DNA from: Dyadobacter luticola
GTDB lineage: Bacteria; Bacteroidota; Bacteroidia; Cytophagales; Spirosomataceae
Direction of reading: 5' to 3'
Length of the DNA: 64,000 nt
NCBI RefSeq assembly: GCF_005860805.1
Contig: NZ_VCEJ01000002.1
Span: 1,100,375-1,164,374 of the forward strand
Of the stretch, positions 34,546-64,000 are shown in pieces. Under the pieces are notes generated by a model. It was not told where the DNA came from and did no database searches. It saw only the letters and a program-made list of their open reading frames with translations. The position numbers were made by a program, and so were the translations under genes. Each line of letters starts with the position of its first letter. Position 1 is the stretch's first letter.

Positions 34546-36261
34546 TTAGATGGAACCGACCACATCATTGAGGTTTGATTCTTCTGGAAGGTTCAGCTTT
34601 TTCCTGATCCGGTGGCGGATAACCCGCACACTTTGCACGGAAATTCCCAAAGTACTGGCCATTTCTTTGTATCCCAAATTAAGTTTGGCGAGCGCCATAA
34701 ACCGGGTTTCGGCAGGGGTAAGGCCCGGCAATTTTTCCCTCAGCCGCGAAAGGTATCCCACATGTATTTTGTCAAAAAGCCGGCGGAAATATTCCCACTG
34801 CTCGTCGGTGAGGATTGTGATTTTTTGTAATTCCGCCACAGCCTGATCATTGGCGCTCATCCCGTAGCGCGCGGTAAGTTCTTCCACGAGTTGATTTTTC
34901 TCCGAGATACTGCGCGTGAATTCTTCCAGCTGCTGGGTGGCAAAATTGAGTTCCTGCTCCGCTCTTTTGAGCTGGTCCTCGGAGCGGCGCTGCTTTTCGC
35001 GCACCTGGTAATAGTAGGTTTTATAAAAATACAGCGCAAGAACGATCAGGAGAATGATCAGTATAAAAAGAATGTTGCGTTCCAGGGTTTTGATCTGCTG
35101 CTCCGCCGCGATGCTTTCCAGGGTAGCCCGGTGCTCCTGCAACTTGGAGCGCTCCGATGCACGCAGCATTTGAATCGAATTAAACTCTTTGGCCAGCTTA
35201 TCGTGGAGCTGATTGGCAGAATCGAGGTATGTATTCGTCAGGTCAAAATTTCCCTGCGCGGCATTTACTTTGGCAAAAACCTGGTAGAGCTGCTCCGACT
35301 TTTTCGGCGGGTTTGTCCGGCTGATCAACCCCTGCGCATCTTTCATGGCGACGGCCGCATCCGCGAACCTTTTTTGCCTGAAATAAATGTCGCTGATGCG
35401 GGTCATCGAGCCTGCTGCCTGCTCAAAATCACCGATCAGCTTTGCCTGATTCACGCTGCTTAGGAGCAGAGGGAGGGCTTTTTCGTAGTTGCCGCGCAGA
35501 TAGGCTGTATGTCCAAGGTCACCCTGCGCGATGCCCTTCCAGACATTATAATCGCCCAGCTTAACATTCTCAATGATTTTTTGAAAATAAAAATCAGCGG
35601 AATCCAGCATTCCTTCCTTGATATAGCTCAACCCGATGGTGTTCATCGCAATGTTGTGCACGCCAAGATGTTCAAAGATCACTTCGGCTTTGAGAGCCTC
35701 CCTGGAAAAAGTAATGGCACTTTTATAGTTGGCAAAAAAGTAATAAGATTCGCCGATGCGTGTCAGGATCACGGCTTTTTCAGGAAGCTCTTTGCCCGAA
35801 ATATGGGCCAGACGCTTGTGAATGTCGAAAAACAGCTCAAATGCCTTTTCGTAATTTTTGGTAAAATACCAGTAAACGTGCGCCAGCTGTACCCGCGCCC
35901 GGATCTGCATTTGCTGGTTTTCCTGCTGATCGGCCTTCGTGATCAGGGCATTCAATTCGTTGATCACCTTGCCAGGCTTCATGCCCGGTACCGATGTCAG
36001 CATGGCAATGTGAATGTAATCGGCTTCCAGCAGCAGCTCATCATCGCCCGCCCTGGCCGCCTGCGACCTGATTTTTGCGATGGATTCATTCGTAGTGACA
36101 GTATCGATGTGATTGACATTGTGATCGATAAAGTTCCGCATGTCCGAATATCGCTCAGCGTGTTTTTTATTGAGCCAGTGTTCAAACTGCGCTGCTCCCG
36201 GAGAGGAGGCCAGAACGAAAAGAAACAGGAATGCAAACCGCTTCTGTAAAAATACGGGCAT
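34546..36261 (-). CDS. Membrane-anchored TPR regulator with C-terminal HTH
   Basis: 571 aa from the ATG at 36261, chosen because MPVFLQKRFAFLFLFVLASS gives a clean signal peptide; the frame extends further upstream without a good start. TPR-type helices fill about 90-390, then a membrane segment (396-414), a coiled coil (415-470) and a C-terminal LuxR/HTH-like domain (about 505-560: LPGLTPAETRFMALAKLNLGYKEMASTLGISVQSVRVIRHRI in part). This layout is a common Bacteroidota regulator in which periplasmic TPRs sense a signal and the cytoplasmic HTH binds DNA. Target genes unknown; the divergent neighbour is trehalose-6-phosphate synthase. Confidence 0.8.
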   Translation of the reverse strand: MPVFLQKRFAFLFLFVLASSPGAAQFEHWLNKKHAERYSDMRNFIDHNVNHIDTVTTNESIAKIRSQAARAGDDELLLEADYIHIAMLTSVPGMKPGKVINELNALITKADQQENQQMQIRARVQLAHVYWYFTKNYEKAFELFFDIHKRLAHISGKELPEKAVILTRIGESYYFFANYKSAITFSREALKAEVIFEHLGVHNIAMNTIGLSYIKEGMLDSADFYFQKIIENVKLGDYNVWKGIAQGDLGHTAYLRGNYEKALPLLLSSVNQAKLIGDFEQAAGSMTRISDIYFRQKRFADAAVAMKDAQGLISRTNPPKKSEQLYQVFAKVNAAQGNFDLTNTYLDSANQLHDKLAKEFNSIQMLRASERSKLQEHRATLESIAAEQQIKTLERNILFILIILLIVLALYFYKTYYYQVREKQRRSEDQLKRAEQELNFATQQLEEFTRSISEKNQLVEELTARYGMSANDQAVAELQKITILTDEQWEYFRRLFDKIHVGYLSRLREKLPGLTPAETRFMALAKLNLGYKEMASTLGISVQSVRVIRHRIRKKLNLPEESNLNDVVGSI

Positions 36262-36631
36262 CGGGGATGGGCGGAAACTGGGTGTACTGCAATACGAAAA
36301 GGAAAAGTACACCAAAAGCTGATCAAAAAAAATGGCGACCATTTCTGACCGCCAGCAACCCACAACAAAAAGTGGCACAGTGTTAATCTGCGATTACATA
36401 GTTGTAGTCCTTGACTAATCTTAGGTTCGCAAGAACCCGTATTTGTGGTCAGACATCACCTTAGTTTATAGAAAACAGCAAAGTTTTTTGCTTGCGTCGT
36501 CTTTGACAGACTTGCCCGGATAAAACCGGTTCCTTTTAAAATGATGAGAGAGGTTGCGGCCGCTAAGCTAGTTATTTTTCCGTTTTAACAAACGCTGCTG
36601 GCACAGGTTTTGAGGCTTGTGCAGCAACGCT

Positions 36632-49594: not shown

Positions 49595-50464
49595 TTAAGC
49601 AATATCACAGATCTGAACGCCTTGTTTGAGTGACGCCAGCGGTTCACGCTTTGGAATAAACTCCTGAGCAACGTAGCCTTTGAAGCCAGTGTCAACAATT
49701 GCCTTCATAATTGCCGGATAATAAAGCTCCTGGGTTTCGTCAATTTCATTTCTACCCGGAACGCCGCCGGTGTGATAATGTCCAATGTATTTAGAATACT
49801 GGCGAATGTTCGCGATAACGTCGCCTTCCATGATTTGCATGTGGTAAATGTCGTACAGCAATTTGAAATTTTCGGAACCCACCATTTCGCAAAGGCCAGC
49901 GCCCCAGGAAGTATGGTCGCACATATAGTCTCTATGATTCACTTTGCTGTTGAGCAATTCCATGATCATGGTAACACCATACTTTTGCGCCGATGGCATG
50001 AGCCTTCTCAAACCGATCGCACAATTCCGCATCCCGTCATAGTCCGACATTCCGCGGCGGTTACCTGAAAAGCAGATTACAGTTGTGTATCCCGCTTCTT
50101 TTAATTTTGGAAAAATGTCCTCGTAACTTTTCACGAGCTCATCGTGCAAAGCCAGATCATTGAATCCTTTTTCGATTCCCATACCTGCGCCATTTGGCAG
50201 CGCACAATGTAAACCATATTTTTTTAAAACCGGCCACTCTTCCGGTCCCAGCAACTCGACGGACGAAATGCCCATCGCCTTACATTCCTGTGCGAAAGTG
50301 TCCAGCGGTATTTTGCTGTAACACCATTTACAAACCGAATGCTTGATTTTTCCGTTGAGCTTCGGGCCGAGCGCTTTTTGGTTGGCCGCCAAAACGTCGG
50401 TCAGCGAAAGTGCCCCGGCGGTTCCGGCTACAATATTTTTTAATGCGTTGCGTCTGCTTGACAT
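49595..50464 (-). CDS. Exported TIM-barrel isomerase (hydroxypyruvate isomerase-like)
   Basis: 289 aa from the ATG at 50464, which begins MSSRRNALKNIVAGTAGA, a Tat-like signal with the Arg pair; a longer frame upstream is unlikely. Xylose isomerase-like barrel with metal residues Glu in MIMELLNSKV, Asp in LLYDIYHMQ and Glu in YVAQEFIP. Closest to hydroxypyruvate isomerase (Hyi) and to sugar 3-epimerase-like proteins. In the periplasm it would act on small keto sugars or acids. It follows the PVC-type cytochrome gene by 131 bp. Confidence 0.82.
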   Translation of the reverse strand: MSSRRNALKNIVAGTAGALSLTDVLAANQKALGPKLNGKIKHSVCKWCYSKIPLDTFAQECKAMGISSVELLGPEEWPVLKKYGLHCALPNGAGMGIEKGFNDLALHDELVKSYEDIFPKLKEAGYTTVICFSGNRRGMSDYDGMRNCAIGLRRLMPSAQKYGVTMIMELLNSKVNHRDYMCDHTSWGAGLCEMVGSENFKLLYDIYHMQIMEGDVIANIRQYSKYIGHYHTGGVPGRNEIDETQELYYPAIMKAIVDTGFKGYVAQEFIPKREPLASLKQGVQICDIA

Positions 50465-50595
50465 TGCGGTAATTATTTGAATTGGTTTTTTTCTGACTTT
50501 GAAAATGCGATTGGGACAAAAAAGAAGTGATGCCACTCACGCAGCATCACTATCTTAAGTTGTTTTACTTATAATCTACTCAAAAGCGGGTTCAT

Positions 50596-53289
50596 CTATT
50601 TTCCGCCTTTCTGGGCTTTGCCTTCCGTATAAATCGGGCTGTTTTTGCTACCGCCGGATGACAGGTAAGCGATCAGGTCACGCAGTTCTTTGGGATTCAA
50701 TCCATTGATCAATCCAGGAAGCATGATAGAAACCGGCGAGATTTTGGTAGAAGTTACCGTTTTCTTCGAAACCTTCTTGATTGTTTTCTGATCAAAAGGA
50801 TTCTGAGCGATATAGTAGAAATTTGCATCCTCATTCATCTGACGTCCCAAAACCGATTCACCATTATTTAATGTGTAAATCGTGGAAGCGTACTGATCGG
50901 AAACCGCCTTGTCCGGTGTGATGATGGATTCCAGCATATCTTTTGCCGTAAATCTGTTCGCCAATTGGGTCAGATCAGGACCGATATCAGAACCTTCACC
51001 TTGGATCATATGGCATCTGCTGCACAGAACCGCCGAGAAAATCATCTTACCGGTTTCAAAATCAGCACCGGCTAAACTATCCTGAACAGCTGCGACAGCT
51101 TCATCAACCTTCCATCCCCTACCCGGCCCTTTCGGGTTGTATGATTTTGCAAGATCATTTCCGCTACCGGTCAATTTATCAGCACCGGATAACTTATTGT
51201 AATAAGCCAGTTTGTCCTGAGGCACGTTTTTCAAAGCAATCTGACGTGCTTTCTCAACAAAACCAATGTAGCTGCGGCCACCCTGGAAACTGAATGCTTT
51301 GTCGTACCATTTGAAATAATCATCGCGTAACTCAGGTGTCCATCCTGTTTTGGCCTGGCTCAAAACAAATGCGTAAAACGTCTGCTGTTTCGCCGGCATC
51401 TTTTCCAGCATACCTGCAATGTCCAGACCGTATTGTGGGTTTCTCAAAATCAAATCGGCAGAAGCTGTGGCGGTTTCGTTGTCTTTGTCATCGAAAGGTT
51501 CGTTTTTCATGAGCAATGCCAAGGTGCGTTCAACCGCTTTTGGCGCTTCAAGGAAAACCAGCAACTTACTATAAAGACGGTTGCTCAGCGCAGAAGATGA
51601 CGGATAATTAGGGCTCAGATAATTGGTTACCTGCGTTTTCAATGCGCCATCCAGTACACCGTAGCGGAAAAACGCTACTTCAAAAACCCGTAAAAGATCT
51701 TGTTGTCTTGTCTCAGGCAGTTTTTTCAGATCAATTGTTGTCAAAGCTTTCAGCAAAGCTTCTTTGTCAGCCTGACTTCCCTGGCGCGCCAAAGCAAGTA
51801 ATGCGTAAATTTTAGTTTGCTGATTTGTTTCGGCAAGCGCTTTTGCTTTCCACTCTGCAACTGGCTGATGTTCAACTGCAAGGCGCGCTGCATAACGAAC
51901 TGAGCGATCCGCATGAGCCAGATTTGGCCAGGCTGCAGCTACTGCTTTCGAGTCTACTCCCAGATGGTATTTTTCAAGATCCGTTCTCAATTTGTGCTCT
52001 GGCGTAAGGTTCACGGTAGCAACATTTGAGCCGGCTTTCAGCGATTTATAATCCTTGTAATACACCCGGTAAAGGTCCGATTCAAGACGACGGCCACCAG
52101 TCAGGAAGTACAATGCACCGTCCGGGCCAATTACACCATCCGTCAAAGGTAGTGGCGATCCCGACAGAAATTCTTCATGATCAGCTGTGTAAGTTCCGCC
52201 TGATGGTTTCAGGTGAAGTCCGTGCATGATACCGAAACTCCAATCGAAAGCCAGCAGCGTATTCTTATATTTTTCCGGAAAAAGTGCGTCTTTCAGGTAA
52301 ATAAGGTTGGTGGGCGATCCTTGTCCAATGTTCATGATCGGGCCCATATTGTCTGGAAATGAAGGTGCCCATTTTGCATCACCTGTTCTCCATCCAAATT
52401 CACTAGCACTTGTTGCGTGACAAACACGGGTAGGTCTATACCACGGTGTACCGAAATCCCATTCCATATCCGAGTCATAAGTGAACATATCACCCGCTTC
52501 ATTGAATGCGATATCAAATGGATTCCGGAATCCAGCGCTCACCAGTTCCCAGGTTTTTCCTTCGGGATCAGTATGTGCAATCCAGCCGCCCGGCGCCATT
52601 CTGTCATTGGCGTGACCTCTCGGATCCTTAATAAATGGAAACAGGTTATCATTTCCCCAGTTGTTAGGCAAGCGATATGAATCCATCTGTGGAAGGTCCG
52701 TATGGTTTCCGGCTACCACGAACAAAGATTTTCCGTCCGGAGAAATCTGCACACTGTGTGGTCCGTGCTCACCTTCGCCATTCATGGCTTTCAGCAATGT
52801 GAGTTTGTCATACTGGTCATTGTTGTTTGTGTCCTGCAACCGATACAAACCGCTTCCTTTTGGAAATTTCGCATTCGAGCGGTTGTTGATCATCACATAA
52901 AGACTATTGAAAGCGTACAAAAGTCCATGTGCAAATCCCATGGCGACCTTGGCAGTATCACCTTCAATCTTCAAAGTTTCGATCACCGGCTTTTCGGTTG
53001 ACCCGATCGGCGGCAGGATTGTCCGGTATAATGTGCCGTATTGATCGGAAGTGATCAGGCGGCCTTTGTTGTCGAAAGTCATGGAAACCCAGGATCCATC
53101 CTGTTCCTCCGACGGACTAAATAAATGCTCGGCCTTGAATCCTTCGGCAAGTTTCAGTTTGTCTACTTTATTTCCCGGTGGCCGGTGCTTGGCGGTGCGG
53201 TTGCTCAGCATCACTCCGCAAAAAACGCCCACAGCCAGTATGGCGGCAAGTGTCATCGGGAGTTTTGACCATTGTTTTTTTGTGTACAT
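50596..53289 (-). CDS. PVC-type dehydrogenase with HEAT repeats and c-type haem
   Basis: 897 aa. Signal or anchor LPMTLAAILAVGVFCGVML. Residues about 45-400 form a beta-propeller like that of membrane-bound dehydrogenases of Planctomycetes (GFAHGLLYAFNSLYVMINN; GPHSVQISPDGKSLFVVAGN; DPEGKTWELVSAGFRNPFDIAFN). A helical HEAT-like part covers about 430-720. The C-terminal cytochrome domain has C756-S-R-C759-H760 and GEGSDIGPDLTQLANRF with the axial Met expected near IMLPGLIN. Likely oxidises a sugar or alcohol and passes electrons to the haem; the substrate is unknown. Transcribed with the isomerase gene. Confidence 0.85.
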   Translation of the reverse strand: MYTKKQWSKLPMTLAAILAVGVFCGVMLSNRTAKHRPPGNKVDKLKLAEGFKAEHLFSPSEEQDGSWVSMTFDNKGRLITSDQYGTLYRTILPPIGSTEKPVIETLKIEGDTAKVAMGFAHGLLYAFNSLYVMINNRSNAKFPKGSGLYRLQDTNNNDQYDKLTLLKAMNGEGEHGPHSVQISPDGKSLFVVAGNHTDLPQMDSYRLPNNWGNDNLFPFIKDPRGHANDRMAPGGWIAHTDPEGKTWELVSAGFRNPFDIAFNEAGDMFTYDSDMEWDFGTPWYRPTRVCHATSASEFGWRTGDAKWAPSFPDNMGPIMNIGQGSPTNLIYLKDALFPEKYKNTLLAFDWSFGIMHGLHLKPSGGTYTADHEEFLSGSPLPLTDGVIGPDGALYFLTGGRRLESDLYRVYYKDYKSLKAGSNVATVNLTPEHKLRTDLEKYHLGVDSKAVAAAWPNLAHADRSVRYAARLAVEHQPVAEWKAKALAETNQQTKIYALLALARQGSQADKEALLKALTTIDLKKLPETRQQDLLRVFEVAFFRYGVLDGALKTQVTNYLSPNYPSSSALSNRLYSKLLVFLEAPKAVERTLALLMKNEPFDDKDNETATASADLILRNPQYGLDIAGMLEKMPAKQQTFYAFVLSQAKTGWTPELRDDYFKWYDKAFSFQGGRSYIGFVEKARQIALKNVPQDKLAYYNKLSGADKLTGSGNDLAKSYNPKGPGRGWKVDEAVAAVQDSLAGADFETGKMIFSAVLCSRCHMIQGEGSDIGPDLTQLANRFTAKDMLESIITPDKAVSDQYASTIYTLNNGESVLGRQMNEDANFYYIAQNPFDQKTIKKVSKKTVTSTKISPVSIMLPGLINGLNPKELRDLIAYLSSGGSKNSPIYTEGKAQKGGK

Positions 53290-53440: not shown

Positions 53441-53493
53441 AGCAATATTATGGGTAATCTTTCAGCAGACCATCCTGTTGTGTCGGGTTGAAA
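53441..53493 (-). promoter_or_regulatory. Shared 53-bp promoter-like element, copy A
   Basis: Read on the + strand as AGCAATATTA, then 18 bp, then ACCATCCTGTTGTGTCG. It matches copies B and C with the same spacing. On the minus strand it faces the PVC-type cytochrome gene and would leave about 150 nt of leader. Weaker copy: 8 of 10 and 13 of 17 conserved bases. Confidence 0.6.
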
Positions 53494-53517
53494 GCCGGGA
53501 ATGTCTCTTGAAAAATG

Positions 53518-53554
53518 AAAGAAGTGCACGAAGCGTTGGCTTGTGCACTTCTTT
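53518..53554. terminator. Terminator hairpin after the SusCD operon
   Basis: Arms AAAGAAGTGCAC (53518-53529) / GTGCACTTCTTT (53543-53554) with a 13-nt loop and a T-run on the + strand. It lies between the promoter-like copy A and susD. Confidence 0.8.
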
Positions 53555-53558
53555 TTTT

Positions 53559-53641
53559 AATGACTGAATGATTGAATGAGCGAATGAGTGAATAGAAAAA
53601 AAGAACACTCACTCATTCAGTCATCAAATCATTCAATCATT
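53559..53641 (-). repeat. Imperfect long inverted repeat of TGAATGA units
   Basis: Two 36-bp arms (53559-53594 and 53606-53641) that are reverse complements with about seven mismatches, separated by an A-rich 11-nt loop. Both arms are built of repeated GAATGANTGA words. It overlaps the susD stop codon and adjoins a second hairpin, so the susCD transcript would end in a double hairpin. Confidence 0.7.
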
Positions 53642-55148
53642 AAAAGTTCGGCGTAAGCGCTGATTCGACAGCTGGTAATCCGTAATATGGATCCAAAATC
53701 GTGAAGGCATTGCCCGGAGGAACTGATCCGGCTGGGAAATAGTAAGCAGCTGGATTTGATTTAACACGCTGACCGTAAGGCACAATGATCTCCTGGATAC
53801 GGCCGGTTCTTACGATATCAAACCATCTTTTGTTTTCAAAAGCCAGCTCTACCCTTCTTTCTTTGAAAATCGCCTCCCGCAGATCGGCTTGTGATACCGC
53901 TTTGGTAGCAGCCAGTCCCGCTCTTTTACGAACCATGTTCAGATATGGGATCGCTTCCGCAGGTTTTCCTTGCTCGTTTAGAGATTCAGCCAGGAAAAGA
54001 AGTACTTCTGCATAGCGGTACACCGGAAAATTCTGGCCTGTGTTGCCGTGCTGCGTATGTTTCCGTGCGAACTTTTTGATGTAAGGATACACTTTGTTTG
54101 CTCGCAAACTCTGGCTCAATGTCACATATCCAATGCTCACATCCTTTCTTTTATCACCAGGCTCGTAAGCTGCAATGATATCCGGGGTTGGAATGTCATT
54201 ACTTTCCTGAGAAGTCGACTGCGGATTGTTGGTACCTGTGATCGGTACGAGCTCTTCTGCAGTGATTGGCGAAGGAAGGATCTGATAGATCAGGTTTCCG
54301 TTATAACCGGCCGAACCTTCCATGTACTGCACTTCAAAAACCGACTCCGCATTGTTTTTGTTGGTAGCATTTCCTGAAAATGCATCGTCATAGTTTGGCA
54401 TCAGCGAGTATTCGCCGCTTTTTACGACATCCGCCATCAATGTTGCAGCGTCGGCCCATTTTTTCTGAACAATGTAAAGGTTCGCCAGCAGGGTTTTAGC
54501 TGCACCCGAAGTAGCCCGTCCTTCTTCTTGTTTTGATTTGGAAAGCAAAGAAGTGGACGCTTCTTTCGCATCTTTTTCGATTTGCGCATACACGTCTTCC
54601 ACTTTCGACAAAGGCAATGCAGCTTCCTCGCGGTTGGTAACCGGCACCAGGTGAAGCGGCACAGAACCGAAATATCTGGCGAGCTCGAAATAAGCAAATG
54701 CTCTGAGGAAAAGCGCCTGACCTTTCAGGTTAGCCTTGATCGCCGCGTCAAAATCCACATCGTCGATCAGGACCAGGATCTGGTTTGCGCGGGAAATGAT
54801 GAGGTAATCCTGGCGCCACTGCTGCAACACATTGTCATTGGCAGTAACACCATTTGCGGTTGGTACTGCAAAATCTGCAATGTTTTCAGTCGGGTCCACT
54901 GCGCCGTAAAGCGGGTTTCTCGCGTAATAAGCATTATCGGAATGCAGCTCACCCAGCTTCCACGCGCGGTCGTTGAAGATAGACCGCAGCGGAGCGTAAG
55001 TTGCATTTACAGCTTGTTCAAAGTCAGTTTGTGTTTTGAAAAACGTATCTGAGCTCAGCGATGTCTGCGGGGTTACGGTCAGGAATTTATCCTGGCAGCT
55101 TGAAAATGCCATGGTAGCAATGCAAGCAATGATTATTTTTTTTCTCAT
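53640..55148 (-). CDS. SusD/RagB family nutrient-binding lipoprotein
   Basis: 502 aa from the ATG at 55148. Lipoprotein signal MRKKIIIACIATMAFSSC (Cys at 18). SusD family: N-terminal TPR-like helices (QAVNATYAPLRSIF; ANQILVLIDDVDFDAAIKANLKGQALFLRAFAYFELARYFGSVPL in part) and the C-terminal RYAEVLLFLAESLNEQGKPAEAIPYLNMVRKRAGL block with ERRVELAFENKRWFDIVRTG. It sits on the outer membrane above the SusC channel and captures the substrate. Substrate unknown. It starts 33 bp after the susC stop. Confidence 0.95.
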   Translation of the reverse strand: MRKKIIIACIATMAFSSCQDKFLTVTPQTSLSSDTFFKTQTDFEQAVNATYAPLRSIFNDRAWKLGELHSDNAYYARNPLYGAVDPTENIADFAVPTANGVTANDNVLQQWRQDYLIISRANQILVLIDDVDFDAAIKANLKGQALFLRAFAYFELARYFGSVPLHLVPVTNREEAALPLSKVEDVYAQIEKDAKEASTSLLSKSKQEEGRATSGAAKTLLANLYIVQKKWADAATLMADVVKSGEYSLMPNYDDAFSGNATNKNNAESVFEVQYMEGSAGYNGNLIYQILPSPITAEELVPITGTNNPQSTSQESNDIPTPDIIAAYEPGDKRKDVSIGYVTLSQSLRANKVYPYIKKFARKHTQHGNTGQNFPVYRYAEVLLFLAESLNEQGKPAEAIPYLNMVRKRAGLAATKAVSQADLREAIFKERRVELAFENKRWFDIVRTGRIQEIIVPYGQRVKSNPAAYYFPAGSVPPGNAFTILDPYYGLPAVESALTPNF

Positions 55149-55180
55149 TATCAATATCGATAGGATGTAAATGGCTGGAA

Positions 55181-58100
55181 TTAGAAGTTGAGGTTGATAC
55201 CCACTGTCCAGGTACGTGGTATTGGATAGTTAGAAAAATCGCGTCCGAGTGATAAGTTGCCGCCGTCTCCGTTTCCTGATGGGTCAGCACTTGTTTCCGG
55301 GTTTGGTCCACCCCAATATTTGGTAAATACGTACAGCTGCTGAACAGAAGCATACAATCTCGCCGACTTGAAGATCTTGTTTTTCACACCAATGTTGTAA
55401 CCCAATGTCACGTTTTTGATGGTAAAGAAAGATGCGTTCGCCAGGAATTGGGTACTTGCCCAGTCTCTTTCAAGACCTGTGTAGTTACCACCATTGTTGG
55501 TTGCGCCGAACATGCCTTTTCCTTCGGTGATGATGGTGCTCGCTACACCGTTTGCGTCATTTTTAACACGGAAACGATCTTTTACGCCAGCTACCATGTT
55601 GAATACACCGTCGAGGTTGGCAGTACTGTACAAATGTTGTACATAAAGCTGGTTACCTTGTGAACCTGAACCGGTTACCGACAAATCGAAGTTTTTATAC
55701 GATACATTGTTGGTGATACCGTAAGTGAATTTCGGGAATGGGTTGCCGATCACCGTTCTGTCGTCCTGGTCACCACCATTTGTGATCACACCGTCACCGT
55801 TCAGGTCTTTGTAGCGGATCACCCCGATTGCCGAGCGGCCCGGAACAACCGGCGTATTTTTAAGTTGCTCAGCAGTAGTGTAGTAGCCATCTTTTACCAA
55901 GCCATAAAACTGTCCAAAAGGCTTGCCTACCTGCGTAATGTTCACTGCACCGTAAACGCGGTCGATGCCGTCAGCGAGTGACATTACCTTGTTTCTGTTG
56001 ATCGAAATGTTCGCGTTGGTAGTCCATTTCAACTGACCTACCGTGTTGCGGGTTGTCAGAGAGAATTCATTTCCCCAGAACTTGATCTCGCCAATGTTAT
56101 CATTGAAGTTTCCGAAACCGGCTTCCTGTGCGATCTGCACGCTGTAAAGCAGGTTACTGGTTCTTTTTGTATAATAATCATAGGCAAATGTGATCCGGTC
56201 GTTGAACAAGCCCAGATCCAAACCAAGGTCAAACTGTTTTGTTTTTTCCCAGCCCAGGTTACGGTTGGCAAGCGAAGTAATTGCCGCACCCGCTGCTACA
56301 TTGCCTCCGAATACCGAGTTGATCGTGTTGTCAACCAAAGCATAAGAAGTATAGTTACCAATGTTGTTGTTACCAATCACACCGTAGCTCGATCTCAATT
56401 TAGCAAACGATATCTGCTTGACGTTTTTCAGAAACTCTTCGTCTGAAACTACCCAGCCTACCGAAGCCGACGGGAATGTTCCCCAGCGGTTATCAGAACC
56501 AAAGCGGGACGATCCATCCGCACGAACAGCTGCCGTGAACAGGTACTTACCTTTGAAGTTGTAAGTCAGACGCGAGAGGTATGATGAAAGCGTAAACTGT
56601 CCTACACCGCTTGAAGTACCGCCGCCGCGAGAAATGTTGATCGCACTTTGAGGTGTTGTGATCCTGTCGTCCGGATAAGTATTAGCCGAAACAGTCAAAG
56701 CCTCTTCATTGAATTTTTGAAGCGTCGCACCAGCTAGCAATTCGAAATTATGTTCTCCGAAAGATTTGTTGTAGGTAACCGTGTTTTCGTTCAGCCAGCT
56801 GTAACTCTGATAATTTGAGCGAACAGATGATGCAGTGGTTGGAATCGGTACGTTGATCTGGTAAGTCGCAGTCGATGGGTTGAAGTAAAAGAATTTCTCA
56901 GCCCGGTACTCTGTATTGAAAGAGGCTTTGATCGTCAAACCTTTGATCGGCGAATAAGCTGCGTAAGCATTTCCAAGGAAGCTGGTTTTCTTCGTTTCGT
57001 TGGTCAGCTGCTGTGCCGCGCGCACCCAGTTAGGGTAATTGAAAATGTTACCGGTACTTCCAGGGAAGTTGTTATAAGTAGTCAAATCACCGTTTGCGTC
57101 GCGGATCGGCATTACCGGCCAAGTATGCAAAGCATTGAAAAGGATACCGGTACCACGGTCACCATCTGATTTTGGTGTATTGTCAAAAATGTAAGACGGA
57201 GCAATGTTGAAGCCTAGTCTCACTTTGTCGCTCACACGGTACTCGTTGTTAATACGCAAAGAATATCTTTTGTAAGCATTGTTGATCACCACACCCTGCT
57301 GGTTGAAAACCCCCGCTACGACCGAAGTACTTGATTTTTCGGTGTTGGTAGTTACCGTCAGGTTATAGCTTTGAAGCGGCGCCCGGCGGAGCAATGCACC
57401 ATACCAGTCGTTGTTTTTGCCTCTGTATTTTGAAGGATCGGTAAATTCTTCCGGTACTGGCTGGTTCTGGTCTTCGTAATATTCTTTTTTGAACTGCGCG
57501 AATTCTTCTGCATTCAACATTTTGATCAAACCGCGGTCCGGCACTTTTTGCGTACCCACATACACATTCAGGCCAATGTTGGTTTTTCCATTGGTCGATT
57601 TTTTGGTAGTGATCAAAACAACACCATTCGCAGCACGTGAACCGTAGAGAGAAGTTGAAGCCGCATCTTTCAGGATGGTAATGTCTTCAATTTCATCCGG
57701 GTTCATGTTACCGATGCTACCCGTGATCGGGAAACCGTCAATCACGTAAAGCGGATCGCTACCTGCTGAAACCGACAACTGGCCGCGGATACGGATAGAC
57801 ATTCCCTGCCCTGGCTTACCGGTGGTTTGGTTAATCTGCACACCAGCCAGTTTACCCTGTAATTTCTGGGTCACCTGCGACACCGGCATGTCTTTAATCT
57901 CGTCGGCTTTAATGGTCTGTACCGCACCGGTGATTTCTTTTTTCAACTGGCTACCGTAACCCACTACCACGACTTCCGTAAGTGCTTTCGAGTCGGTCGC
58001 GAGCTTAATGTTCACTGTCGAGCTGGATCCGAGGGGTAATTCCTGGGTCAGAAAACCCACGGAAGAAATGATCAATGTTCCACCCGATTCAGGTGCATTG

Positions 58101-58378
58101 ATTGTAAAATTACCTTCGGCATCGGAAACAGTACCAGTAGTTGTTCCTTTCAATACCACACTTGCTCCGGGAAGGCCGGCACCTGTATCGTCAAGCACCT
58201 GCCCCTTGATGGTGCGGTCGACATTCACAGAACTACTTACATGTAATGGGCTAAGGGCCAGATGGTTGTCAGCCATCGCATTGAGTCCACACGCAGCGCC
58301 TATGAGCACCTGGCTCAGAGACAACTTCAAAATGGAATTCAATTTAGCGCATTGAGGAAATTGGCGAAATTGATTCAT
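55181..58378 (-). CDS. SusC/RagA family TonB-dependent outer-membrane receptor
   Basis: 1065 aa. Signal peptide region (residues 1-40), carboxypeptidase-like regulatory domain at about 57-135 (IKGQVLDDTGAGLPGASVVLKG), TonB box-like EVVVVGYGSQ (about 137-147), plug (LQGKLAGVQINQTTGKPGQGMSIRIRG) and the SusC signature LYVIDGFPITGSIGNMNPDEIEDITILKDAASTSLYGSRAANGVVLITTK (key: Pro, Asp, Ala-Ser, Gly). A 22-strand barrel follows and ends in Phe. It imports glycans or other large nutrients with its SusD partner. Preceded by a long intergenic region and promoter-like copy B. Confidence 0.95.
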   Translation of the reverse strand: MNQFRQFPQCAKLNSILKLSLSQVLIGAACGLNAMADNHLALSPLHVSSSVNVDRTIKGQVLDDTGAGLPGASVVLKGTTTGTVSDAEGNFTINAPESGGTLIISSVGFLTQELPLGSSSTVNIKLATDSKALTEVVVVGYGSQLKKEITGAVQTIKADEIKDMPVSQVTQKLQGKLAGVQINQTTGKPGQGMSIRIRGQLSVSAGSDPLYVIDGFPITGSIGNMNPDEIEDITILKDAASTSLYGSRAANGVVLITTKKSTNGKTNIGLNVYVGTQKVPDRGLIKMLNAEEFAQFKKEYYEDQNQPVPEEFTDPSKYRGKNNDWYGALLRRAPLQSYNLTVTTNTEKSSTSVVAGVFNQQGVVINNAYKRYSLRINNEYRVSDKVRLGFNIAPSYIFDNTPKSDGDRGTGILFNALHTWPVMPIRDANGDLTTYNNFPGSTGNIFNYPNWVRAAQQLTNETKKTSFLGNAYAAYSPIKGLTIKASFNTEYRAEKFFYFNPSTATYQINVPIPTTASSVRSNYQSYSWLNENTVTYNKSFGEHNFELLAGATLQKFNEEALTVSANTYPDDRITTPQSAINISRGGGTSSGVGQFTLSSYLSRLTYNFKGKYLFTAAVRADGSSRFGSDNRWGTFPSASVGWVVSDEEFLKNVKQISFAKLRSSYGVIGNNNIGNYTSYALVDNTINSVFGGNVAAGAAITSLANRNLGWEKTKQFDLGLDLGLFNDRITFAYDYYTKRTSNLLYSVQIAQEAGFGNFNDNIGEIKFWGNEFSLTTRNTVGQLKWTTNANISINRNKVMSLADGIDRVYGAVNITQVGKPFGQFYGLVKDGYYTTAEQLKNTPVVPGRSAIGVIRYKDLNGDGVITNGGDQDDRTVIGNPFPKFTYGITNNVSYKNFDLSVTGSGSQGNQLYVQHLYSTANLDGVFNMVAGVKDRFRVKNDANGVASTIITEGKGMFGATNNGGNYTGLERDWASTQFLANASFFTIKNVTLGYNIGVKNKIFKSARLYASVQQLYVFTKYWGGPNPETSADPSGNGDGGNLSLGRDFSNYPIPRTWTVGINLNF

Positions 58379-58695
58379 AGGATTTGATTTTGATTAAAAT
58401 TCAGCAGAGATAACAGATTGGTAGACACGGGTTAATCGGGTTTTTGCATGGGTCCTTTCTTCATTCAACTCAAATTTGGTGGTCAATTTTAGATAGGGGT
58501 TTAGAAATAGTCGCAGATCGGTATGTATAAAAAATATCAACTTTTATTGTTAAAGTCTTATTTGAGTTCAACAGCAATTTTCCCATTTCTGGGAGGGCTT
58601 AAACAGGCATAAGTTGACGGAGAATTGAAATACTTTAAGAATTAAATGTTCTGGTATCTACACGACACAATTTTTAATTCTAATAGTAACATTTA
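58379..58695 (-). other. Long leader region of the susC operon
   Basis: 317 bp between the predicted promoter (copy B) and the susC start codon. A short hairpin-like CCCATTTCTGGG occurs at about 58586. No ORF or known riboswitch is recognisable. The length would allow leader-level control. Confidence 0.4.
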
Positions 58696-58748
58696 TGCAA
58701 TAGTAGAGGGAATGGAATAACAGACTATCCTGCTCTGTCTGGTTTTAA
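58696..58748 (-). promoter_or_regulatory. Shared 53-bp promoter-like element, copy B
   Basis: TGCAATAGTA, 18 bp, ACTATCCTGCTCTGTCT, read on the + strand. Identical in both blocks to copy C at 62856. On the minus strand it reads AGACAGAGCAGGATAGT, 18 bp, TACTATTGCA and lies upstream of susC. Confidence 0.72.
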
Positions 58749-58781
58749 TTGAGATTTAATTAATCGATTTAGTACAAAAAA

Positions 58782-58802
58782 AAGCGCACTTGCGGTGCGC
58801 TT
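58782..58802 (-). terminator. Intrinsic terminator after the DUF1501 gene
   Basis: Stem AAGCGCAC / GTGCGCTT with a 5-nt loop and a run of about nine T on the minus strand (A-run 58775-58783 on the + strand), 24 bp past the DUF1501 stop. It shields the susC promoter region from read-through. Confidence 0.9.
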
Positions 58803-58826
58803 CCTTTCCTGCCTTAACTCCGGATC

Positions 58827-60254
58827 TTAGCTCAGCAATTCCATCACTGGCTTGCCTTTTCCATCGGGAGTGGTGTAAAATGGCCTTTTTTCAATTTCAT
58901 ACTGGGTGTCCGGGGCGATGCCCAATGCGTGGTAGATGGTCTGGTGGATACCGTCGATTTTTACCGGATTTTCGATGGTTTTGCAGGGACGCTCATCGGC
59001 TGTTTTTCCGTACACAAATCCTTTTTTAATTCCGCCGCCGAACATTAACATCGAGCAGCCGTCGGTAAAGTGGCGGTGCATACCATAAAATTTCAAGTCT
59101 GAAAGAATGTCCGGCTGGGCCACTTGTTCCAGTACTTTCTGGTCGGGGCGGCCTTCCACCATCATATCACGGCTGAACTCGCTGGCGAGTACGATCATGG
59201 TGCGGTCGAGCAAACCTTTTTCGTCCAGGTCTTTGATCAGCTGGGCAACCGGCCCGTCGATCTGCTTTTTCATTTCTTCCAGGCGGGTATGTCCGTTTTC
59301 GTGGGTATCCCAGCCTTTAAATGGTTCATATTCAGTAGTTACGCTGATAAACCTGGCGCCTTGTTCTGTCAGCCGGCGGGCGAGTAAGCATCCCAGACCA
59401 AACTTGCCGGTGTTGTACGTATCGTAGCTCTTTTTCGGTTCGGTGCTGAGGTCAAATGCTTTCGATTCGGGCGAATTCAATAATGCATAAGCCTGCTCCA
59501 TCGAACGTTTTAATGATTCGCGCTGGTAGTCACTGCCAAATTCACCCACCGGGCTATTGTTGATCAGCTCATTGTAAAGCTGGTTTCTACGCTCAAATCT
59601 TTTTGCATCCATACCCACCGGCGGGCGCACGCTGTCCAATCCCTGGCTCGGGTCCGGGATAAAAAACGGACCAAATTCATTGCCGAGGAAGCCGGCCGTA
59701 TGGAACGCTTTCAGCTCTTCGGCCTCTCCTACCGTGAACCGCTGGCCAATGTCCACAAACGCCGGGATGACCGGATTTTTAGGTCCCAACTCTTTCGCGA
59801 TCCACGATCCGAGGTGCGGCGCGGCCACGGTTTGAGGTGGTTCGTAGCAGGTATGCCAGTGATATTGGTGCCGCGAATGCAGGATGTGGCCCATGTCCGC
59901 CGCCACGTACGAGCGGATCAATGTGCCTTTGTCCATCACATTCCCGATGGATTGCAGCCCGTCAGAAAAGTGAATGCCGTCGAGTTTGGTGGGCAAAGAT
60001 TTGAATGTGCTCAAAACCCGGTTGCCTTCCATGTCCCTTTCGTAAGGCGTGTACAGTTTCGGGTCGAAGGTTTCGGTATGGGCCATACCGCCTGCCATCC
60101 ATAAAAGAATGACGGTATCTGCGGTGGAGTTGCTGCCGGATTTGCCTTTACAGGAAGACAGCAGGTTTGCTACTGGTGCTCCCGCAGCCAGCGCAGCAAG
60201 TGTTGCAGCACTCGCATGCTGCAAAAACTCTCTCCTATTCCATTGGCTTTTCAT
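58827..60254 (-). CDS. DUF1501 domain-containing exported protein
   Basis: 475 aa from the ATG at 60254 (an upstream TTG at 60260 would add two residues). Tat signal NRREFLQHASAATLAALAAG followed by a possible lipobox SSCKG. DUF1501 (alkaline phosphatase/sulfatase-like fold): VILLWMAGGMAHTETFDPK, GVHFSDGLQSIG-type, HSRHQYHWHTCYEPPQ, and near the end IVLASEFSRDM and MLMFGGGIKKGFVYGKT. Function of the family is unproven; it is nearly always encoded beside a DUF1549/DUF1553 cytochrome protein, as here (184-bp gap). Confidence 0.9.
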   Translation of the reverse strand: MKSQWNRREFLQHASAATLAALAAGAPVANLLSSCKGKSGSNSTADTVILLWMAGGMAHTETFDPKLYTPYERDMEGNRVLSTFKSLPTKLDGIHFSDGLQSIGNVMDKGTLIRSYVAADMGHILHSRHQYHWHTCYEPPQTVAAPHLGSWIAKELGPKNPVIPAFVDIGQRFTVGEAEELKAFHTAGFLGNEFGPFFIPDPSQGLDSVRPPVGMDAKRFERRNQLYNELINNSPVGEFGSDYQRESLKRSMEQAYALLNSPESKAFDLSTEPKKSYDTYNTGKFGLGCLLARRLTEQGARFISVTTEYEPFKGWDTHENGHTRLEEMKKQIDGPVAQLIKDLDEKGLLDRTMIVLASEFSRDMMVEGRPDQKVLEQVAQPDILSDLKFYGMHRHFTDGCSMLMFGGGIKKGFVYGKTADERPCKTIENPVKIDGIHQTIYHALGIAPDTQYEIEKRPFYTTPDGKGKPVMELLS

Positions 60255-60438
60255 TTTCAATTATTTTTTAAAACGCTGATTATCAAAAAATTAAACCGTA
60301 ATATTTATTTTACTTTTTATACTATTAATATTTATTTTTCTTATTTAAAATATCGATCATTTAAAAAGTTACGTATGTAATGATCATATTGTCTGGTTAA
60401 TGCTATTGGTATGTTTGATACATTCAGAATGTGCTGTA

Positions 60439-62802
60439 TTAATAGATCAACTGAAACTCCGGAACCAATGCAATCGCCCATACCAGATCTTGGATTCCTT
60501 CCTCGCTCGGCACCGGTCCGAGTATCTTTTTGGCAGCCGCAATCTCTTTCGGGAGCGGCGTGCGGCCCAATGCTTTTTGGTACAGCTCAGTCACCAGCGA
60601 GTCCGACGTCGGATATTTGGTCTTCCAGTTTTTCGCGCCCTCTTTTAATGTTTGGGTAAACTTGCTACCATTGGTTAGTTCCAATGCTTGCAGCAAGTTG
60701 GCCTGCGACGTCCGGCTCGTACTCACAGTCTCCCGGTTAGGGCGACCCAGTGAAGTCAGGAACGGATCGTTTTTCACGAGGGCTGCGCGGGCAAAAGGAA
60801 GTTTCGGTTTAATGTCCTCAGGTAAGCGTTTGTAAACAATCGCCGAGTCGGCATACATCGGACTGAATGCTACACTGATCGCATCCGAGAACTGTTCGGC
60901 CGAAAGCCGCTTTCTTACCATGCCGGTAAACTTGTAATTGTTGGCCATAATGTCCTGCGCTTCTTTCACGGACGTTGAGGGCAGCTGATATGTTTTGGAA
61001 GTGACGATCGTGAAGATCAGCTTTTTCATATCATAACCATTTGCGACAAAATCGGAAGCCAGCCAGTCGAGCAAGTCTTCGCTCCACGGTACATTGTCCA
61101 TCGCATCCACCGGCTCCACAATCCCGCGACCGAGCAGCTGCGCCCATACCCGGTTTGAAACCGTACGGTAAAGACGTCCGTCTTTGGGCTGCACCAGAAA
61201 ATCTGCAAGCTGACGCAAGCGTTTTTCGGTACTTGCATTAACACTGATCTCACCCAGTTCCGGGAAAAGGATTTTGGTACCAGCGATTTTACCCGTCGGC
61301 TTGTCGCAGCGGTTAATCTCTAATAAGGTATCTGCAAAAATGTTCGCGAATGCATAGGAGTCGGCCAGTTTCCAGTCACTGATAAAACTGTCGTGACAGG
61401 AAGCACATTTCAGGTTGAGCCCTAGCATCACCTGTGCCACATTCTGGGCGGCCTGCATTTCAGTACGCTGGCTCGAATTGATGGTGCCGCGCCATTTAAT
61501 GCCTTTTATAAATCCTTCGGAGGCTTTGTCGGGACTGATGAGCTCTTTTACAAAAAAGTTGTAAGGCTTGTTGTCCTGCAAAGAAGTGTAAAGCCATTTG
61601 GTAATGTCAAAACGGCCACCGGTAATGTAGCCAGTTCCGGAATAATCATTTCGCAACGCGTCATTCCAGAATGTCATCCAATGTTGCGCATAGTCGTCAT
61701 TGCGGCTCAGGAGCTCTTTCGCAAGAATCTCACGTTTGTCGGGACGGCTATCTGCTATGAATGCGGAGATCTTTTCAGGTGGCGGCAGTAAGCCGATAAC
61801 ATCCAGGTAAACCCGGCGGATGTAGGTGCGGTCATCGACAACCGGTTTCCAGGCAATTTTATTTTTTTGAAAATAAGCATTTACAAAAAGATCCACTGGC
61901 TTGGTCAGATCGCCGGTTGGCGCTGGTACCGTCGGCATACGCGGTTCGAGTTCTGCCACGCGGTAAATACTTTTTTGCTTGCCGTCGGGCCACAGGGCGC
62001 CTTTTTCAATCCAGTAAGTCAATACCTTGATTTCTCTTTCACTCAGGCGTTTTCCTTTGGTCGGCATCGCCTCTTTGTCTCCTTTCGGAAGAGATATGCG
62101 CCTGATCAGTTCACTTTTGTCGGGATGGTTCGGGATTACGACCACGCCATCTTCGCCGCCTTTCATAATGGCATCTTTGCTGTCGAGGCGGAGGTCGCCT
62201 TTGGTTTTGGTTTCGCTGTGGCAGCTGTAACAGTTGTGGGCCAGGATTGTGCGAACTTCGATGTTCAGTTCCTGTACTTGCTGCGGGTTTAATGCACCAT
62301 TATTGGTTAAGACAAAATCCGCCTCGGTTTCACCTTCTGGCTCTTTTGTCCCGCCCGCGCCGCCAGGTAACACGCTTGACAGATAGTCATCGCCGTGGGT
62401 TAGCATTGCGCCATAATGTCCGGCAAATGATACGCCAAATACAGTGCAGAACAAGAGTGACCGGAAGATCGCCCTGTTTTTAGCTTTCAAGGCAAAAAGC
62501 GCCACAACCGTCAAGGTCATGGTCGCAATACCCGACCATTTGTGAATGTTGAATGTTTGCCCGCTCGCATCCTCTGAGTCAGCCAGCATGAGTCCGAAGA
62601 CCACAGCAAAGACCGCGCTGAACGCACCCACCCAGGTCAATATAGAAATCGCATCGCGGAGAGCGCCCGACTTGCGTTTCCAGTCTAAAATTTCAAGTAA
62701 GAGGGCGACGCACAAAAGTCCAATCGGAAAATGCACGAGCAGCGGATGCAGCCGCCCTAAAAATTGCCAAAGCCAGAAAGTTTCGTTTGCTTGGAGTAAC
62801 AC
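60439..62802 (-). CDS. DUF2231/DUF1549/DUF1553 multidomain cytochrome c protein
   Basis: 787 aa, start GTG at 62802. Four membrane segments at about 15-140 form a DUF2231-like domain (FLGRLHPLLVHFPIGLLCVALLLEIL). A Planctomycete-type cytochrome domain has C191-Y-S-C194-H195 (HNCYSCHSETKTKGDLRLDSK), followed by the DUF1549 domain (about 310-520) with a second site C466-A-S-C469-H470, and DUF1553 from about 540 (PWSEDLLDWLASDFVANGYDMKKLI). Together with DUF1501 it may form a membrane-bound redox or hydrolytic complex on the periplasmic side. The reaction is unknown. Preceded by promoter-like copy C, 54 bp upstream. Confidence 0.9.
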   Translation of the reverse strand: MLLQANETFWLWQFLGRLHPLLVHFPIGLLCVALLLEILDWKRKSGALRDAISILTWVGAFSAVFAVVFGLMLADSEDASGQTFNIHKWSGIATMTLTVVALFALKAKNRAIFRSLLFCTVFGVSFAGHYGAMLTHGDDYLSSVLPGGAGGTKEPEGETEADFVLTNNGALNPQQVQELNIEVRTILAHNCYSCHSETKTKGDLRLDSKDAIMKGGEDGVVVIPNHPDKSELIRRISLPKGDKEAMPTKGKRLSEREIKVLTYWIEKGALWPDGKQKSIYRVAELEPRMPTVPAPTGDLTKPVDLFVNAYFQKNKIAWKPVVDDRTYIRRVYLDVIGLLPPPEKISAFIADSRPDKREILAKELLSRNDDYAQHWMTFWNDALRNDYSGTGYITGGRFDITKWLYTSLQDNKPYNFFVKELISPDKASEGFIKGIKWRGTINSSQRTEMQAAQNVAQVMLGLNLKCASCHDSFISDWKLADSYAFANIFADTLLEINRCDKPTGKIAGTKILFPELGEISVNASTEKRLRQLADFLVQPKDGRLYRTVSNRVWAQLLGRGIVEPVDAMDNVPWSEDLLDWLASDFVANGYDMKKLIFTIVTSKTYQLPSTSVKEAQDIMANNYKFTGMVRKRLSAEQFSDAISVAFSPMYADSAIVYKRLPEDIKPKLPFARAALVKNDPFLTSLGRPNRETVSTSRTSQANLLQALELTNGSKFTQTLKEGAKNWKTKYPTSDSLVTELYQKALGRTPLPKEIAAAKKILGPVPSEEGIQDLVWAIALVPEFQLIY

Positions 62803-62855
62803 AATATAAAAAATTATGGGTTTAGGAATATTCAGTATAAAGACCTGAAATATTT

Positions 62856-62908
62856 TGCAATAGTAAAATGATTGAAAATTGGCACTATCCTGCTCTGTCT
62901 TGTTTGAA
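62856..62908 (-). promoter_or_regulatory. Shared 53-bp promoter-like element, copy C
   Basis: TGCAATAGTA, 18 bp, ACTATCCTGCTCTGTCT. Identical in both conserved blocks to copy B while the 18-bp spacer differs. 54 bp upstream of the DUF1549 gene start on the minus strand, the position expected of its promoter. Confidence 0.75.
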
Positions 62909-63089: not shown

Positions 63090-64000
63090 TTAATAGCCCG
63101 GATTCTGGGTCAATTTGGCATTGATCAGGATTTGTGGGGCCGGGATCGGCAGGTAGTATTCATTTTCTGTGTATACATAATCTGTCGAGTTAAAAGGTAC
63201 GTTTCCGCGGTCCACGGTTGGTTTTTCACGTTCTTTTGCGCCATGAGCATTCATAAATGCGGCCCACTGCGCCGGGGTCATCGTTCTTTTCAGGTCGAAG
63301 AAGCGCTGGTTTTCAAAAGCCAGTTCCAGACGGCGTTCTTTCAACACGGCAGTCCGGAATGCAGTTTTGTCCAAAGCGGTCAATGCGGCTAAGCCAGCGC
63401 GTTTTCTTACCTGGTTAAGGTAGTCCAGAGCTTCTGCGGTCGGGCCAGTCTGTTCGTTGATCGCTTCCGCCAACATTAAGAGCACATCGGCATAGCGCAG
63501 CACCGGCCAGTTGGTATTGGTCCGGTTTACGATGGTATGCGCATAGTTGTATTTGGCAACATAAGGCACCGGATATTCTTTTCCATCCAAAGTAAAGCTG
63601 GTTTTCAGTGAAACATCTTTGCGCAAATCACCTTTTTCGTATGCATTGATGATGTCATTGGTAGGAACATTACGTCCGCCGTTTCCACCGGCAGAGTAGC
63701 CTGTTACCGCGCCTTTTGAAACCCTCGGTGCAAAAACATATTCGAAGTTGCTCCACTCACCCAGGTCATTATCGCCCTGGTACTGCACTTCGAAGAGCGA
63801 CTCTGGTCCATTCTTTTTCGCCGCCGACGGATCGAAGTTATCCGCGTAGTTGGCGTTCAGTGAATAACCCAATGTGGTTACCTCTTTCAATGTAGTGACC
63901 GTTTCGGCGTATTTTTTCTGAACCAGGTAACTTTTGCCCAGAAGTCCCAGCGCGGCCCCTTTGGTAGCGCGGCCTTTGTCGGCAGCATTGGTGTATTTGG
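63090..64000 (-). CDS. SusD/RagB family lipoprotein, partial (C-terminal part)
   Basis: Open frame that enters from the right edge; the TTG at 63890 is only an internal codon, since the frame continues in phase to 64000 (visible residues start about KYTNAADKGRATKGAALG). C-terminal SusD signature is clear: LRYADVLLMLAEAINEQTGPTAEALDYLNQVRKRAGL and KERRLELAFENQRFFDLKRT, closely similar in pattern to the other SusD in the window. The upstream partner susC is expected beyond the window. It is followed by a hairpin terminator, then the promoter-like copy C. Confidence 0.92.
   Translation of the reverse strand, partial: KYTNAADKGRATKGAALGLLGKSYLVQKKYAETVTTLKEVTTLGYSLNANYADNFDPSAAKKNGPESLFEVQYQGDNDLGEWSNFEYVFAPRVSKGAVTGYSAGGNGGRNVPTNDIINAYEKGDLRKDVSLKTSFTLDGKEYPVPYVAKYNYAHTIVNRTNTNWPVLRYADVLLMLAEAINEQTGPTAEALDYLNQVRKRAGLAALTALDKTAFRTAVLKERRLELAFENQRFFDLKRTMTPAQWAAFMNAHGAKEREKPTVDRGNVPFNSTDYVYTENEYYLPIPAPQILINAKLTQNPGY

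Follow-up and report, generated by a model that had tools for sequence, protein, structure and literature searches.

In Bacteroides thetaiotaomicron, rhamnose catabolism is activated by the AraC-family protein RhaR (BT3768) (PMC3878776, PMC3870299). These reports give Bacteroides RhaR a predicted direct repeat with a 21-bp period and a regulon of a single operon, and they assign predicted 21-bp repeats to AraC-type rhamnose regulators outside the enterics and 10-11-bp repeats to those of the DeoR type (PMC3870299). Here we describe a bipartite promoter-like element in a 64,000-nucleotide stretch of the Dyadobacter luticola genome (the window). Three copies in the window and a fourth about 4 kb past its end stand before the units of a locus for SusC/SusD pairs, DUF1549 and DUF1501 proteins and a PVC-type cytochrome, and the element resembles the promoters of the rhamnose genes rhaDI. 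The likeness to the B. thetaiotaomicron system lies in rhamnose catabolism that would be controlled by an activator in a member of the Bacteroidota. The element differs in that its direct repeat has a period of 10 bp and its sites also precede SusCD and cytochrome units. The 21-bp period of AraC-type RhaR targets was not seen (the period was 10, and shifts of up to 12 were tested), and the column profile of 88 sites showed no further block of sharp conservation at a distance of 21 bp.

Other described systems match in part. HTCS and SusR also have direct-repeat motifs upstream of SusCD operons, but the mean period is 21 bp for HTCS and 67 or 77 bp for SusR (PMC3878776), a spacing that does not fit, and both were set aside as readers of the element. 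A global Crp-like regulator was rejected too, its reported Bacteroides motif being a 22-bp palindrome (PMC3878776) unlike the block found here. DeoR-family RhaR proteins of Chloroflexus, Rhizobium and Thermotogales have imperfect direct repeats of 10-11 bp at rha operons, like our block (PMC3870299); as the same report describes them, however, they are repressors where tested and have lineage-specific motifs, and in none of 18 genomes examined here did a DeoR match lie less than 40 kb from rhaD. The housekeeping promoter of the Bacteroidota (sigma-ABfr type) consists of TTTG and TAnnTTTG at -33 and -7 (PMC7366714), of which the -7 element is matched here and the -33 position is taken by the second half of the repeat. 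We found no published description of such a regulon in the literature on Dyadobacter, rhamnose and SusC, which was covered mostly by titles and abstracts, with RegPrecise-type motif databases outside the search. Judged in this way, the papers that touch on these subjects are species or genome descriptions, a study of gut carbohydrate loci, a review of secretion and a survey of inositol, and none but PMC3878776 looked relevant. The element offers a first functional handle on the SusCD and DUF1501/DUF1549/PVC-cytochrome locus, which is conserved in the Dyadobacter genomes searched and whose genes have no known role: they would be co-regulated with the catabolism of L-rhamnose. Its architecture, in which a tandem repeat replaces the -33 box, could serve as a test case for how an activator works with the unusual sigma factor of the Bacteroidota.

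Read 5' to 3' on the minus strand, the element has the consensus GACAnnnCAGGATrGT-N18-TAnTATTGC. An earlier, sequence-only reading of the window had proposed three copies of a two-part element, and all three were found in place, at 53442-53484, 58697-58739 and 62857-62899 on the minus strand. At three or fewer mismatches these were the only matches in the window, compared with none in 100 dinucleotide shuffles of it. Copy A (53442..53489) has its outer block, ACCCGACACAACAGGATGGT, at 53488-53469 and, after an 18-bp spacer, a -7-like box, TAATATTG, at 53450-53443. Copy B (58693..58744) has the block ACCAGACAGAGCAGGATAGT at 58743-58724 and the box TACTATTG at 58705-58698, and copy C (62853..62904) has the block ACAAGACAGAGCAGGATAGT at 62903-62884 and the box TACTATTG at 62865-62858, again with 18-bp spacers and all on the minus strand. 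As the sequence-only reading had it, copies B and C do not differ in either of the boxes it defined, copy A keeps 13 of 17 positions in the outer one, and the 18-bp gap is exact in the window copies; its length of 53 bp for the element was wrong, a whole copy measuring 45 bp (10 + 18 + 17).

Across the whole 6.4-Mb genome, the same threshold returned five matches: copies A, B and C; copy D, a one-mismatch match at C1:1168369-1168411 that lies about 4 kb past the window, in front of the next susC; and C5:1029705. The last, with three mismatches, lies before or overlaps the start of a gene for a CarbopepD_reg-domain protein. We also built a model of the element from sequence (R1, 53 training sites), which gave copies A to D 38.2, 51.4, 46.9 and 35.0 bits (copy D at L008:8369-8417, minus strand, outside the window). 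Copies A to D were among the training sites and score high by construction, so that genome background and other genomes are the only independent tests of R1. Elsewhere in the D. luticola genome R1 reached at most 16.1 bits; two weak matches, C3:320579 and C3:292982, lay within or behind coding regions and were set aside as likely chance matches. The outer block alone, at one mismatch or fewer, matched the genome 22 times, compared with 4 for the reversed pattern. The sequence-only reading had held that genome-wide matches at random or coding positions would speak against it; the four strong sites all precede genes of the locus, but about 10 of the 18 weaker, block-only matches outside the locus fell in coding sequence.

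With the inner box taken as the -7 element, the outer block spans about -32 to -51 and is a 10-bp tandem direct repeat, CMRGAYAGW n CMRGAYAGW (permutation test, p 0.0019 at a shift of 10 and p 0.012 for any shift of 5-12). Its inverted similarity is weak, and it is not the palindromic GT...AC operator of targets of the GntR AraR subfamily. That the block is no palindrome had been recognized before, although the tandem repeat had been overlooked, as had a conserved CC directly outside the block (96% and 84% of the 88 profiled sites). A 5-bp periodicity runs through the block as well (roughly ACAGn x4), and the 10-bp repeat accounts for this pattern only in part. The inner box, TAnTATTG, is one base off the -7 element TAnnTTTG; the description of the whole as a bipartite promoter-like element with a -7-type box is supported. 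At -33, the 88 profiled sites have the GAYA of the block instead of TTTG.

The element is conserved throughout the genus. At three or fewer mismatches, all 48 Dyadobacter genomes searched contained the pattern, with 1-5 matches each and at least four in 28 of them, compared with one match in each of 3 of the 48 for the reversed control pattern. An exact-pattern scan of 84,980 species returned 54 stretches, every one from Dyadobacter, and in a family-wide R1 search of 222 genomes the strong matches were confined to this genus. Outside it, 16 of 174 genomes had an R1 match at E<=0.05, against about 9 expected by chance (best E 3.2e-4). For footprints, 105 of 117 distinct contexts were assigned to four copy types by downstream gene; the leftovers were 10 of the 117 without a copy type, and two from a second DUF1549 operon. 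Within copy types, identity was 83-96% in the block and 84-97% in the -7 box, compared with 38-60% in the spacer and 33-67% in the flanks.

Each copy heads one minus-strand unit: cytochrome/isomerase for copy A, SusC1/SusD1 for B, DUF1549/DUF1501 for C and SusC2/SusD2 for D. The first start codon lies about 153, 319, 55 and 152 bp, respectively, behind the -7-like box. The element, its conservation and its repeat structure, together with the likeness to rhaD promoters described below, are direct results of the computation. Since no TTTG is left at -33, an activator at about -40 would be the simplest reading, and we infer activation rather than repression. Our preferred reading, to which we give a probability of roughly 0.65, is that the copies are promoters for the housekeeping sigma factor under an unlinked and probably rhamnose-responsive activator, which would bind head-to-tail at about -40 and join the four units and rhaDI. 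Each copy would then be an activator-dependent promoter with TAnTATTG as its -7 element. The tandem repeat would suit two DNA-binding domains placed head-to-tail on one face of the DNA, with the second half-site over the place of the -33 box. When bound, the unlinked regulator would recruit RNA polymerase, making up for the missing -33 contact and jointly switching on SusCD1, SusCD2, DUF1549/DUF1501 and the PVC-cytochrome/TIM-barrel isomerase unit. The regulon that the sequence-only reading had placed in a SusCD cluster is supported, and it now takes in a fourth unit as well as rhaDI and reaches across the entire genus.

Weaker sites in the D. luticola genome lead to rhaDI, a GH78 rhamnosidase pair, a second DUF1549/DUF1501 operon, a 3-keto-disaccharide hydrolase operon and an operon with an extracytoplasmic function (ECF) sigma factor, FecR and SusCD. 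The stretches beyond the main locus were chosen by block match and are no unbiased survey of the genome. The rhamnose assignment is based on family models and on the likeness of the sites. The rhaD product, rhamnulose-phosphate aldolase/dehydrogenase, scored above the NCBI cut-off. A diverged element stood before rhaDI in all 30 Dyadobacter loci that were read and in 9 further genomes, making 39 of 39 examined (39 of the 48), although closely related genomes have rhaDI leaders that resemble one another from end to end, so that part of this count is shared descent. This diverged element makes L-rhamnose, or a product of its breakdown, the likeliest signal and rhamnose-containing glycosides the likeliest substrates of the locus. 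The GH78 rhamnosidase pair of D. luticola carries the element, and in genome G016 the gene behind one site shares 34% identity with that for the D. luticola GH78 protein. The second, unlinked PSCyt1-DUF1549-DUF1553/DUF1501 operon has an element with a spacer of 18 and the box CATTATTG (L093:8356-8400), and the operon carries this element in G003 and G002 too (L179:7123-7167 and L181:5700-5744).

The rhaDI leaders (L247-L276) contain further conserved stretches, GTAAGTTTYC in the spacer and CAGAGTAGTATT and CCTTTCTGG downstream, which might form an RNA structure or serve as a further operator. Near rhaDI, between divergent genes, we also noticed a conserved GAAAGTGCCTGATAATAAATG...GTACGTATTTTTA at L277:8536-8580, with counterparts in L281, L286, L287, L288 and L289. 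In these six Dyadobacter genomes it scored 11.0-16.9 bits by the rhaD motif introduced next, and it is possibly the site of another regulator.

Further evidence for the rhamnose link comes from a motif learned outside Dyadobacter. We collected rhaD from 33 genomes of other genera, 10 of which had been picked for weak R1 matches, and ran a Gibbs search on 27 rhaD upstream regions with no Dyadobacter sequence among them (7 of the 27 from the preselected genomes; L309, L321 and L322 had been omitted beforehand for short flanks). One site per sequence was assumed, so a site in 27 of 27 is given by construction, and L302, L314, L316, L320 and L323 are poor members. The learned motif, CAGGAnAGTACATGAAA-N20-TAnnTTTG, has the housekeeping consensus as its inner box and a best score of 763, compared with at most 412 in 15 shuffled runs with equal settings. 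Four of six starts of the first run reached 763-798 (the others 601 and 453); in the control-matched run three of six ended at 688-763, and the remaining three, at 403-435, lay close to the shuffled runs. Four stretches of the D. luticola genome, 245,650 positions in all, were scored with the motif (the window and three more, one of which, L011, was obtained through a weak block match), and only copies A, B and C had 11.75 bits or more. They rank first to third in the window, and copy D scored 23.3 bits. When the seven preselected genomes were left out, six of eight starts arrived at the top score of 639 with a nearly unchanged motif; copy C then ranked first in the window (16.8 bits), copy B second (12.5) and copy A fourth (10.0), and copy D scored 22.4.

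In G215, which belongs to another genus of the same family, rhaD and genes for DUF1549 (67%), DUF1501 (88%) and SusC1 (68%) proteins are neighbours on one strand, with a three-mismatch element before SusC1. In G190, a three-mismatch element (14.6 bits) stands before a RhaT-family transporter gene that adjoins rhaD.

Several results weigh against our preferred reading. The putative RhaI is L-rhamnose isomerase-like but falls below the NCBI equivalog cut-off (494.8 vs 646.75 bits). From the locus pattern the rhaDI site departs at 4-5 positions, and it has 13.5 bits by the locus model (E 0.5), and because of this divergence it is by inference that we take it to be the same site, for one protein, as those of the locus. 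In the rerun, a coding position (10.1 bits) outranked copy A, and under the learned motif the element before SusC1 of G215 had only 8.3 bits, with one position in its 20-kb stretch scoring higher. Among 20 rhaD loci outside the genus, 12 had the element at four or fewer mismatches, with a consensus that had itself been written from such loci, and 3 had no learned-motif match above 11 bits. Matches of 15.0 bits in L294, 11.3 in L277 and 11.2 at window position 50065 had no evident target, and in L281 a coding match of 21.8 bits beat the rhaDI site at 21.4. Finally, the strongest extra site belongs to the 3-keto-disaccharide hydrolase operon and another to the ECF/FecR/SusCD operon, and the regulon may therefore exceed rhamnose.

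This last point leads to the rival reading that survives best, in which the reader is a general activator of sugar catabolism and rhaDI is one target among many. The site before the hydrolase operon (L094:3012-3056, equal to C5:115511-115555) scored 25.4 bits and was the top rhaD-motif site among the D. luticola stretches scanned; behind it lie genes for a 3-keto-disaccharide hydrolase, two TIM-barrel isomerases and ThuA. Well-placed sites before the second DUF1549/DUF1501 operon (14.9 bits) and the ECF/FecR/SusCD operon (17.0 bits), and the excess of block matches over the reversed control, point the same way. However, this list of sites is biased toward block-matched stretches, the coding positions of more than half of the outside block matches count against it, and conservation across genera was covered at rhaD only. 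We consider a general activator possible, yet clearly less probable than a rhamnose-responsive one.

A repressor such as a DeoR-family RhaR could also use the tandem repeat as its operator, covering -33 and leaving on induction. The 10-bp period of the block agrees with the imperfect direct repeats predicted for DeoR-family RhaR motifs (10-11 bp), which is a further point against an activator, and binding of the Chloroflexus aurantiacus RhaR is abolished by L-rhamnulose (PMC3870299). All 18 genomes examined encode at least one DeoR protein. With no -33 TTTG under the block, though, the promoter should be weak unaided, which does not suit repression. Linkage speaks against it as well: the DeoR group common to most genera adjoins a histidine kinase gene (in Dyadobacter) or a gene of which the one member tested is a NUDIX protein, and DeoR was rejected as the reader for want of any rha linkage. 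In G016, which retains the rhaDI element, there are three DeoR matches, one of them partial, and neither of the two compared grouped with the shared DeoR set. A repressor thus appears unlikely.

The sequence-only reading had named either an activator or a special sigma factor as the reader. The activator is favoured by our results, and the sigma factor, for which the boxes would be the -35 and -10 of an alternative, FecI-like ECF sigma serving the locus, is disfavoured. In 7 of 48 genomes, an ECF sigma gene (at least 71% identity) does directly follow the site. In the four such loci read, G018, G008, G014 and G030, it stands between the site and SusC1, followed by a FecR-family gene in G018 and G030, by a FecR-sized gene in G008 and by a short frame lacking any Pfam match in G014; the SusC1 of G018, the only one tested, has an STN domain. 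The D. luticola genome itself has one weaker site before its ECF/FecR/SusCD operon. In the other 41 of 48 genomes, however, the best ECF match had at most 49% identity, with only 68 candidates scored in genomes rich in paralogs. Since sites are present in all 48 genomes and the ECF gene in 7, an ECF sigma factor cannot be the general reader and was rejected as such. A tandem repeat of about 20 bp is also long for a sigma -35 contact. Outside the genus, moreover, the inner box at rhaD is the housekeeping TAnnTTTG. We regard an ECF promoter as improbable. The ECF insertions between element and SusC1 lie at L168:10762-16292, L171:9728-15289, L172:611-5232 and L184:8421-13260, with a FecR-family gene in L168 and L184. 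L184 has only the C-terminal part of FecR and L172 a short frame with no Pfam match, as if decaying.

That the copies, four similar 45-bp stretches within 15 kb, are recent duplicates or a functionless mobile repeat can be dismissed with near certainty, since spacers and flanks differ among the copies and drift among species while the boxes hold, and the related rhaD element outside the genus could not stem from such a duplication.

Returning to a rhamnose-responsive activator, we considered which protein might read the element. The first candidate is a GntR/LacI-type, AraR-like protein whose gene is convergent to rhaDI in D. luticola and in all 13 further Dyadobacter loci inspected. Its domain make-up is that of the AraR subfamily (GntR helix-turn-helix with a LacI-type sensor; PMC4494728). 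The GntR consensus is palindromic, however, and direct repeats are reported for some members only, whereas the element here is a direct repeat. Such a gene lies near rhaD in 9 of the 20 loci outside the genus, where the element (four or fewer mismatches) was present in 4 of 9 loci with the gene and 8 of 11 loci without it; linkage therefore does not predict the element, a result that speaks against this candidate. An AraC gene was found near rhaD in one genome (L338). More broadly, and tentatively, given that we put it at somewhat under even odds, the family Spirosomataceae may share an undescribed rhamnose activator acting on a 10-bp repeat that replaces the -33 box, with the SusCD/DUF1501/DUF1549/PVC-cytochrome locus taken over in Dyadobacter, its proteins of unknown function forming a periplasmic or outer-membrane redox route for rhamnose-containing glycosides.

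All genes of the four units lie on the minus strand. Unit A starts with a PVC-type heme-binding CxxCH protein (50596..53289; Pfam Cytochrom_C, with NCBIfam TIGR02603 above and TIGR02604 below cut-off), followed by a xylose-isomerase-like TIM barrel protein (49595..50536; AP_endonuc_2). In unit B, SusC1 (55181..58378; Pfam Plug, CarbopepD_reg_2 and TonB barrel) follows a leader of about 320 bp and precedes SusD1 (53640..55154; Pfam SusD_RagB and SusD-like_3). Unit C consists of the PSCyt1-DUF1549-DUF1553 protein (60439..62802) and the DUF1501 protein (58827..60260), both assigned by Pfam. In unit D, SusD2 (63090..63890, Pfam) is cut by the window end and is whole at L008:3465-4982; its partner SusC2 (L008:4985-8218) is named from its size, its place and its pairing with SusD2.

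Two minus-strand hairpins, spotted by eye and then folded, precede copies A and B and were absent from a consensus terminator scan. The one between the DUF1501 gene and copy B (58772..58812; -18.3 kcal/mol, z -4.0) resembles a terminator, with its U-tract on the minus strand. The other, between susD1 and copy A (53516..53560; -21.7 kcal/mol, z -6.9), has its clear T-run on the plus strand and is less certain as a minus-strand terminator. For each, 0 of 200 shuffles folded as well. The stretch upstream of copy C gave no hairpin when folded, and Rfam had no match in the window. We recognized no regulator gene among eight window and eight L008 proteins scanned, which cover the neighbours in part. 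About 15 kb away, at window positions 34546-36378, is a gene for a regulator-like TPR protein of 610 aa with a C-terminal helix-turn-helix similar to sigma region 4.

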